A stretch of 64,000 nucleotides of DNA. Source: an uncultured Ilumatobacter sp. (GTDB lineage Bacteria; Actinomycetota; Acidimicrobiia; Acidimicrobiales; Ilumatobacteraceae). The notes beneath the pieces are model-generated. The model did not search any database and was not told where the DNA came from. It saw only the letters and a program-made list of their open reading frames with translations. The stretch covers positions 29,347 to 93,346 of the forward strand of contig CALFRK010000028.1 in assembly GCA_937919625.1 (NCBI GenBank). The letters run 5' to 3'. Positions 43,072 to 45,144 of the stretch are shown piece by piece. Position numbers and translations under genes: made by a program. Position 1 is the first letter of the stretch. Every line of letters begins with the position of its first letter.

Positions 43072-43428
43072 TCAGACGACCACCCGATCGGCAAGCTCAT
43101 CGGACTCGACGAGGCCGAGTTCGTTGACGATGACAGGAGGCCCAGGCCTCTTGGAAGGTCGCCCGCCGGGTCTCTTGTGGGCGACGATGCGTCCGCCGGA
43201 CAGCAACTCGCCACCCCAGACACCCCACGGCTCCTCACGCTCGAGGGCGTCGTCCAGGCATGACTCGCTGAGTGCGCATTTGGCACAGATCGCCTTGGCG
43301 CGTGCGATGTCGAGCACATGGTCGGAGAAGAACAGTGGGGTGAGCGTGCCGTGGCCGTCCGCACAGCGGGCGACTTGCAGGGTCGAGATGGAGTACTCAT
43401 TTATGAGCTGAAGCTGAATGGTGCTCAT
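43072..43428 (-). CDS. WhiB-family regulator, WhiB7/WblC-like with AT-hook-like tail
   Basis: C...CAKCALSESC 4Fe-4S cysteines, EEPWGVWGGELLSGGRIVAHKRPGGRPSKRPG: tail pattern recalls the WhiB7 HKRPRGRPRK AT-hook. Confidence 0.85.
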   Translation of the reverse strand: MSTIQLQLINEYSISTLQVARCADGHGTLTPLFFSDHVLDIARAKAICAKCALSESCLDDALEREEPWGVWGGELLSGGRIVAHKRPGGRPSKRPGPPVIVNELGLVESDELADRVVV

Positions 43429-43496
43429 GGGCGATGTCTTTCTGGTCGTGATGATGGTTGTCGTCGTGGTTGCTGGTTGTTCGTTGCTGGGTTCAT
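43425..43496 (-). CDS. Short upstream ORF (23 aa), possibly translationally coupled to whiB
   Basis: MNPATNNQQPRRQPSSRPERHRP*; GGAAG about 5 nt upstream; stop overlaps whiB start (ATGA). Confidence 0.5.
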   Translation of the reverse strand: MNPATNNQQPRRQPSSRPERHRP

Positions 43497-43517
43497 GAGA
43501 TCTTCCGTATCGGGGTC

Positions 43518-43556
43518 GAAAAACGAGAAAGGCCGCCGGGTCGGAACCCGGCGGCC
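43518..43556 (-). terminator. Intrinsic terminator in whiB leader
   Basis: Stem ggccgccgggt-cgga-acccggcggcc (11-bp perfect) followed on the minus strand by TTTCTCGTTTTTC. Confidence 0.85.
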
Positions 43557-43583
43557 TCGGTACGAGGGTGATTCGACGTTTGG

Positions 43584-43835
43584 TTACGTCGACCCCGTTT
43601 CGAGGTGCCGGGCGTGGCGCTTGACGAACATTGCGTTCTTGGCGGCGGCCAGAGTGGTGGTGTTGCCGTTATACGCATTGATCGGGAGCCCAGCGACACC
43701 GGTTGTGCCGCGACCGTGGAATTCGGGCGCAACGGTGTGCTGACGCCAGCTGGAGCAGGCAACCACGGCAGACCCGCAACGGCGGGCGCGACCGGGCGTG
43801 TGGCCCAGCTGGTGCGTCGTCGTCATCGTGTCCAT
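43584..43835 (-). CDS. Upstream ORF (83 aa) in whiB leader, candidate regulatory leader peptide
   Basis: AGGAG-caaccg-ATG; MDTMTTTHQLGHTPGRARRCGSAVVACSSWRQHTVAPEFHGRGTTGVAGLPINAYNGNTTTLAAAKNAMFVKRHARHLETGST*. Confidence 0.55.
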   Translation of the reverse strand: MDTMTTTHQLGHTPGRARRCGSAVVACSSWRQHTVAPEFHGRGTTGVAGLPINAYNGNTTTLAAAKNAMFVKRHARHLETGST

Positions 43836-44073
43836 CGGTTGCTCCTGCGCTTGGGCTGCAACACGCGAATGTGCGCAGCGGAGGTTCCAGTGGACCACGC
43901 CGCGCGCATCACAGTCAAGGAGGTTTCCACGGGAAACTCCGAGACCGCTCTCGGGGCGACGGTTCGGCCGTCAGGCGAGCAACACCGGTCAACCCGAACG
44001 GCATATCGCTCGACAGGTTAGAGAGCACCGCCGAGGCAGTTCTGGCGAGCCAACATTTTGCCCAGATAGTGGC

Positions 44074-45144
44074 TCAGTCGACGAGCACGTACCGATACGG
44101 CGACGGCTCGGTCTGACGCGTCATCTCACCAAGCCGGCGGAGGTGCTCGAGATGGGCGTAGGTTTCGCTGTCGGCCATCGTGCCCTGAACCCGAGCCGAG
44201 AACAGATGCTGTGAGTATTCGGTCACGGATGCCGGGTGACCGATCTGTTCGGCCGTCGACCGGAGCTGATCGAGGCGATCGACATGATGCTGCTTGATCG
44301 ACTCGGCGCGTGCCGCCAGGCTCGAGAACGGATGCCCGTGCGCCGGCAGCACTACCGAAACGTCGTCGCCGTACGCCGCGATCTTGTCAAGCGATTCCAG
44401 AAAGGTCGCCAGCGGGTCTGCCATCGGTGAGAGACCACCGACGTGAGGAGTGATCGTCGGCAGCACGTGATCGCCCGACAGCATCACGCCATCGGTCGGG
44501 TCGAAGAGACACAGATGATCCTCGGTGTGGCCAGGGGTGTGGATCGCGACCCAGTCACGACCCGCCAGCGAGATTGTCTCAGCTTCGTTCAGTCGCATGG
44601 TCGGCGTAGGCGTGCGCATCAGACGCGGGAGGTGCCGGGATGCCCTGAGGGCCAGCTTTCGTTTCCACGAGAAGGCCATCTGCTTTCCGTCCCACGGTGT
44701 CGGGTCCCACGGGAATCGGCGGCCGAGCAGTTTTGCCACCTCCGGCAGATCCTCGACATCGACGTCGGGAGGCTCGGATGGGTCCCACATCAGTCGGAAC
44801 CGTTGGTGGGTGACGACCTGAGCCCCGGACTCGTGCTGAACGCGCCCGGCGCCACCGAAGTGATCGGGGTGGCTGTGTGTGACGATCACGGTGTGCACTC
44901 GCTTGATCGGGAACCCAGCGGAGGCGAGCCGCCGCCGTAGCACCTTGTACGAAGACAGTCCCGGAAGACCTGGATCGACGATCGCGACGCCGTCGCGATC
45001 CTCGAGCAGATAACAGTTGACATGGCCGAGTCCGGTGAAGTCGATCGGCAACTGAGCGCGCAAAACGCCCGGTGCAACCTCGATGATCTCGTCGCTCGCC
45101 CGCTCCTGCTCCTGTTTGGGCACCCGCCCGGTCGTGCTCGTCAT
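44074..45144 (-). CDS. MBL-fold metallo-hydrolase
   Basis: VIVTHSHPDHFGGAGRV; HTPGHTEDHLCLFDP; LSGDHVLPTITPHVG. Confidence 0.92.
   Translation of the reverse strand: MTSTTGRVPKQEQERASDEIIEVAPGVLRAQLPIDFTGLGHVNCYLLEDRDGVAIVDPGLPGLSSYKVLRRRLASAGFPIKRVHTVIVTHSHPDHFGGAGRVQHESGAQVVTHQRFRLMWDPSEPPDVDVEDLPEVAKLLGRRFPWDPTPWDGKQMAFSWKRKLALRASRHLPRLMRTPTPTMRLNEAETISLAGRDWVAIHTPGHTEDHLCLFDPTDGVMLSGDHVLPTITPHVGGLSPMADPLATFLESLDKIAAYGDDVSVVLPAHGHPFSSLAARAESIKQHHVDRLDQLRSTAEQIGHPASVTEYSQHLFSARVQGTMADSETYAHLEHLRRLGEMTRQTEPSPYRYVLVD

Follow-up and report, generated by a model that had tools for sequence, protein, structure and literature searches.

The whiB7 gene of this uncultured Ilumatobacter sp. lies on the minus strand of the window, by which we mean the whole 64-kb stretch of DNA analyzed here, and a leader of about 450 nt separates it from a metallo-beta-lactamase-fold gene ending at 44074 (Table 1). 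The encoded protein (P0001) carries C22, C48, C51, and C57 together with EPWGVWGGE. WhiB7 (WblC) proteins have an AT-hook, RGRP, at the C-terminus; in the window protein the core GRP is there, but as GGRPSKRPG rather than RGRP. Four cysteines, a G[IVL]W[GA]G turn, and a WhiB7-specific EPW are described as the hallmarks of this group (PMC10727445), and all of these are found in the window protein. Its top match in the PDB is WhiB7 (E 6e-18), followed by WhiB3 (E 6e-6), and Pfam identifies the Whib family (E 1.4e-12); a search of NCBIfam gave no match. By these motifs and matches, the protein is a member of the WhiB7 clade, and it shares 75-83% identity with proteins from metagenome-assembled genomes of Ilumatobacter and other Ilumatobacteraceae or Acidimicrobiia.

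Table 1. Features of the whiB7 locus and its leader (positions in the window).
Feature	Position	Strand	Description	Basis
WhiB7-type promoter	43889..43927	minus	GAAACC 43927-43922, 3 nt, -35 TTGACT 43918-43913, 18 nt, extended -10 TGG-TCCACT 43897-43889	
Shine-Dalgarno AGGAG of uORF	43842..43846	minus	6 nt before ATG	sequence
uORF	43584..43835	minus	83 codons, ATG 43835 to TAA 43584; all 20 amino acids, one W, one Y	
Antiterminator strand A	43601..43612	minus	CCCGGC-A-CCTCG, in last uORF codons	covariation with 43559-43547
Hairpin H	43573..43592	minus	TCGACGT/ACGTCGA, arms 43592-43586/43579-43573; uORF stop codon in loop	
Shared segment	43547..43559	minus	CGAGGCCGCCGGG; partner of A and terminator left arm	
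Intrinsic terminator	43518..43557	minus	12-bp stem and 4-nt loop 43557-43530, T-rich tail to 43518	
whiB7 gene	43072..43428	minus	118 aa, four Cys, EPWGVWGGE, AT-hook-like GGRPSKRPG	

Several observations concern the surroundings of the gene. Directly downstream of whiB7, a strong inverted repeat without a T-run occupies 43065-43019, and a similar hairpin is formed 3' of whiB7 by a different sequence at another locus (L002), which suggests a conserved transcript 3' end. The adjoining positions 43019-41575 (minus strand) hold TlpA/AhpC-TSA-like and DsbD/CcdA-like genes, and a similar pair apparently trails whiB7 at locus L016; these thiol-redox genes could be coupled to whiB7 by read-through if the intervening hairpin leaks. 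Most same-genus genomes have a second WhiB7-like gene about 900 bp upstream of whiB7 (L173-L176; G009:C1:3754010-3754273 and equivalents), which lacks the EPWG motif, and no such copy is listed for the window genome or its nearest relative, G008. Ilumatobacteraceae-type whiB7 loci were also encountered in records titled Bifidobacterium breve or Ferrithrix thermotolerans (L078, L082, L089, L107, and L108, also L094 and L141), which are probably misassigned metagenome bins.

The leader has a conserved WhiB7-type promoter, an element absent from the earlier, sequence-only reading of this DNA, and its predicted transcription start is near 43881. In all nine same-genus leaders, GAAACCTSCTTGAC and the downstream GTG-TCCACT box are kept, with small changes, upstream of the uORF; the boxes are degenerate but present in most of the family, with variants such as TAAATCGGTTGAC combined with GTGGTTnCCT. 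Promoters activated by WblC follow the consensus GAAAWY, 3 bp, TKGMNN, 16-19 bp, TANNNT (PMC7157823). Compared with this consensus, GAAACC-TCC-TTGACT-18-TCCACT agrees in its -35 element and spacing and deviates at base 5 of the box and base 2 of the -10 element. The match to the published layout makes autoregulation of whiB7 by WhiB7 likely. A wider WhiB7 regulon in the same genome found no support, as the strict promoter pattern matched the whiB7 leader alone and GAAAYYNNNTTGAC occurred at three sites versus two for the reversed control, with one of these sites inside a helicase-like frame and another ahead of a shikimate-kinase-like frame. A further, identical occurrence of GAAACCTCCTTGAC (L172, at G000:C166:8374-8387), within a long helicase-like frame, is probably due to chance.

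Between this promoter and whiB7, the uORF and the Shine-Dalgarno sequence ahead of it are present as they had been described. Using the WhiB7 protein as an anchor, we examined 60 relatives, and nearly all of them have an equivalent uORF with a Shine-Dalgarno sequence, spanning about 46-113 codons from predicted start codons, and a conserved stop position, mostly 23-37 nt before the terminator; conservation of both the frame and its stop was among the checks suggested at the outset. The median length is 69 codons in the Acidimicrobiia set (86 uORFs) and 75 codons in 47 non-redundant uORFs mainly from the class Actinomycetes, in which the stop lies 13-32 nt before the terminator; elsewhere in the phylum, uORFs reach 105-109 codons in one large-genome family and about 45-76 in another. 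The suggestion that the window has a much longer uORF than known leaders therefore does not hold, since comparable lengths occur throughout the phylum. The Shine-Dalgarno sequence and the open frame are conserved, although an open frame is weak proof of translation in such GC-rich DNA, where frame +2 is likewise stop-free in 44 of 86 cases.

Downstream of the uORF, the sequence-only reading had placed a strong terminator before whiB7. Its strength (-26.5 kcal/mol for the terminator alone) and its location are borne out, while the stem has 12 bp and not the 11 bp given for it. The terminator with its T-run was recovered at 26 of 30 related loci. Because terminator-like sites are about as frequent in this DNA as expected (2 in 4 kb versus 1.7), the case rests on conservation. 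The proposed pairing of strand A with CGAGG-CC-GCCGGG in the shared segment, exclusive with the terminator, was confirmed. A search for covariation in related leaders had also been proposed, and in alignment A1 (27 leaders) it revealed compensatory changes: the antiterminator turns from G-C to A-U on both sides in three sequences at one column pair and in five at the next, whereas at the same columns the terminator is weakened and retains only U-G in seven of the eight base-changed sequences. Among 92 distinct leaders, arm variants are matched by their own complement in the uORF (GCCGGG in 32/49, GCTGGG in 18/24, and GTCGGG in 6/13). The mean energy of the arm/partner duplex in these leaders, which share ancestry, is -24.2 kcal/mol for own pairs versus -21.2 +/- 0.25 for pairs swapped between leaders and -16.7 for shuffled ones, so that own pairs beat swapped pairs by 3 kcal/mol.

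These results bear on a nonregulatory explanation, in which the hairpin would simply terminate the upstream metallo-beta-lactamase-fold gene and be followed by an independent whiB7 promoter. Such an arrangement could draw on the end of the upstream gene at 44074 and on the frequency of terminator-like sites in this DNA. However, a conserved promoter lies between the upstream gene and the uORF, the antiterminator covaries, and the leader goes with whiB7 rather than with its upstream neighbor, which is another whiB in several relatives. We consider this explanation hardly credible. The leader of the window is very probably a uORF-controlled transcription attenuator of whiB7, and ribosome-controlled attenuation of this gene, as first proposed from the letters alone, is strongly supported by conservation, covariation, the WhiB7-type promoter, and the protein family.

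The way in which the uORF changes indicates what its 3' end is kept for. Within the genus, codon differences in the last 13 codons are synonymous in 3 cases and nonsynonymous in 130, and codon positions 1, 2, and 3 have 68, 83, and 15 changes; in strand A, third positions are frozen, and first and second positions vary. Furthermore, the reading frame of the CCCGGC-type segment differs between lineages (44, 11, and 1). Since A occurs in different frames and change in the last 13 codons is mostly nonsynonymous, the constraint acts on RNA and not on peptide, and by this substitution pattern the last uORF codons are held as RNA. The peptides as a whole are unconserved, and, in the middle of the uORF, all three codon positions change to a similar extent.

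A second conserved hairpin, H, which the sequence-only reading did not include, has compensatory changes in five of its seven pairs (A1), and its fold has a mean z of -2.15 versus -0.52 for a control stretch (92 leaders). When the RNA is folded up to the end of the terminator left arm, the prediction is a single hairpin (-41.1 kcal/mol) whose tip holds the stop codon. Predicted folds of the 92 leaders follow this design, as the arm is paired with the uORF in 90 (versus 61.5 in shuffles), a single apex is formed in 89 (versus 51.5), and the apex falls at the uORF stop in 82 (versus 14.6). Several leaders of other classes are predicted to fold in much the same way, for example, the GGGCC-type leaders of large genomes. 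The best-fold energies before and after completion of the terminator are close (-41.1 versus -45.5 kcal/mol), and therefore the outcome would hinge on kinetics. The earlier proposal that a ribosome at the stop masks CCCGGC fares less well, because this segment lies 18-23 nt before the last sense codon and thus beyond the usual footprint. A ribosome at the stop would instead occupy hairpin H, at the antiterminator tip.

From these parts, their conservation, and their covariation, we infer an order of folding and an effect of the ribosome. WhiB7 and the housekeeping sigma factor would start transcription near 43881. If no ribosome is at the end of the uORF, one long hairpin would form, with A and the terminator left arm outside, H inside, and the stop codon at the tip; this hairpin would form before the terminator right arm exists, and RNA polymerase would read into whiB7. 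Once a ribosome arrives at the stop codon, it would occupy the tip and melt the hairpin; the left arm would be released, and the terminator could form. A ribosome halted anywhere upstream, by a drug or by a missing charged tRNA, would leave the hairpin intact and whiB7 on.

A covariance model of the leader (R1) gave one clear match in the genome of the window, where all further matches were weak (E 0.4 and above); across the order, it matched 123 of 199 genomes. Among 20 order-level genomes with WhiB7, 18 have the match immediately before the gene, and the four genomes without WhiB7 have none. Leaders from other classes are also recognized by the model, about 15 of 50 with an E-value of 0.01 or lower. 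A search of the window against Rfam returned no family above the gathering threshold.

It is important to consider the amino acid composition of the uORF, in which nearly every amino acid occurs. Exactly one Trp is encoded in 77 of the 86 uORFs of the Acidimicrobiia set. After reduction to a non-redundant set of 51 uORFs below 40% identity, a single Trp is encoded by 43 (18.4 expected), and 2 have none (17.7 expected). Tyr and Cys show the same tendency less strictly, and Trp and Tyr usually appear just once. The single-Trp pattern is found only in frame 0 (43/51, versus 17/51 in each of the other two frames), and this restriction of the bias argues for translation of the uORF. The 51 uORFs use a mean of 18.8 kinds of amino acid versus 17.6 +/- 0.14 in permutations that ignore kinship, and 23 of them contain all 20 versus 4.4 expected; the last 50-60 codons tested alone agree with this bias. 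The sample of Actinomycetes behaves alike, with 18.3 kinds versus 17.4 +/- 0.15 and all 20 amino acids in 16 of 47 uORFs. On the contrary, in ordinary protein, taken as 71-residue windows of the long frames in the 64 kb, the bias is reversed (17.1 versus 17.5), and Trp is overdispersed.

Two readings that assign the signal to particular residues agree poorly with these data. A classical attenuator for a single amino acid, of the trp or his type with runs of regulatory codons, would share the layout of uORF, antiterminator, and terminator; however, no amino acid forms a run or is in conserved excess in the uORF, the 13 Thr and 11 Ala among the 83 codons of the window are scattered, and residues turn over between species. 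This type of attenuator is very improbable. A specific arrest peptide, which would stall translation in the presence of drugs through contact of the ribosome tunnel with either a near-invariant Trp or the conserved C-terminal KR.ARHLG, would be in line with the presence of Trp in 84 of 86 uORFs, usually in mid-peptide. Nevertheless, no conserved motif of residues or codons surrounds the Trp codon, the distance from Trp to stop ranges from 18 to 81 codons, and the C-terminal residues vary freely where RNA pairing permits, all of which makes an arrest peptide unlikely.

On balance, we lean toward a broader function, in which the whiB7 uORF would be a general probe of translation fitness, kept by selection to hold each amino acid, with the rare ones about once upstream of the switch; any shortage of charged tRNA or any ribosome inhibitor would then turn WhiB7 on, and mycobacteria would represent a derived, alanine-tuned case. 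In uORFs with one Trp, this residue lies 18-81 codons before the stop, and therefore a ribosome halted there would leave the antiterminator free. That the uORF senses a shortage of charged tRNA besides ribosome drugs is a purpose that we infer from a statistical pattern, and the stall at one hungry codon may be too weak to matter. This sampling of amino acids fits the reported response of wblC to amino acid starvation (PMC12421871) and the strong induction of whiB7 in M. abscessus by depletion of one serine tRNA (PMC10287673). A somewhat less probable alternative is that the same attenuator senses ribosome drugs only and that its composition arose for other reasons, for example, because selection favored an unremarkable, well-translated peptide or because a few old residues were conserved. 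The established role of whiB7/wblC is indeed the drug response (PMC10727445, PMC7157823), and composition cannot reveal the sensed signal. Against this alternative, the single W, Y, and C are found in all six possible orders among the uORFs, and Tyr shifts its position within the genus while its count stays near one, which does not correspond to fixed old residues; the bias is also missing from ordinary protein stretches, and the reported starvation response of wblC also speaks against it. If the uORF samples all amino acids, this would be a testable explanation for the many translation stresses that a single leader reports. With the terms tried, we found no earlier report of all-amino-acid uORFs or of a composition bias, which is not proof of absence; Lee et al. 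(2022) was outside the search.

Actinobacterial WhiB7 genes typically have a leader with a uORF, a terminator, and an antiterminator (PMC10727445, PMC11550727), and both attenuation through the uORF and induction by amino acid starvation are known in relatives (PMC11550727, PMC10727445, PMC12421871). We found no report of a whiB7 attenuator in Acidimicrobiia in the literature, Lee et al. (2022) again lying outside the search. Thus, the kind of switch is already known, and what is new, as far as the literature found, is its occurrence in Acidimicrobiia and the composition bias. With these results, the range of the whiB7 attenuator grows to include a class whose members are mostly uncultured environmental actinobacteria, and its two RNA states gain evidence from covariation.

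Among known systems, the wblC leader of Streptomyces coelicolor (Lee, Lee and Roe 2022), as described in the papers that cite it (PMC11550727, PMC10727445), has in common with the window a uORF, an intrinsic terminator, an antiterminator made of uORF and terminator sequence, and an autoregulated promoter with a GAAAWY box. Streptomyces-like leaders of large genomes use other stem sequences (GGGCCGCGGAACC) than the window leader, and the position of the stop at the tip and the all-amino-acid composition are features that derive from the present comparison. The mycobacterial whiB7 leader has the layout seen in the window. In mycobacterial-looking leaders, the uORFs span 45-76 codons and end 18-27 nt ahead of the terminator; they differ from the uORFs of other lineages in being alanine-rich, and some miss several amino acids (L155, L157, L158), with 17 kinds in L155 and 13 in L159. 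This richness in alanine fits the reported alanine-starvation response of mycobacterial whiB7 (Poulton 2024, as cited in PMC13370626). The ilvB1 leader attenuator of M. tuberculosis (PMC13236596) works alike, in that a ribosome on the uORF stop covers RNA and leads to the terminator while a stall leads to the antiterminator, but its uORF is short and carries the branched-chain regulatory codons LVVI, whereas the uORF of the window is long and has no run. Similarly, in the attenuators of the ABC-F genes vmlR, vgaL, and are5sc (PMC12421871), translation of a uORF selects the terminator or the antiterminator; these uORFs are very short and sense particular drug classes, in contrast to the long uORF of the window.
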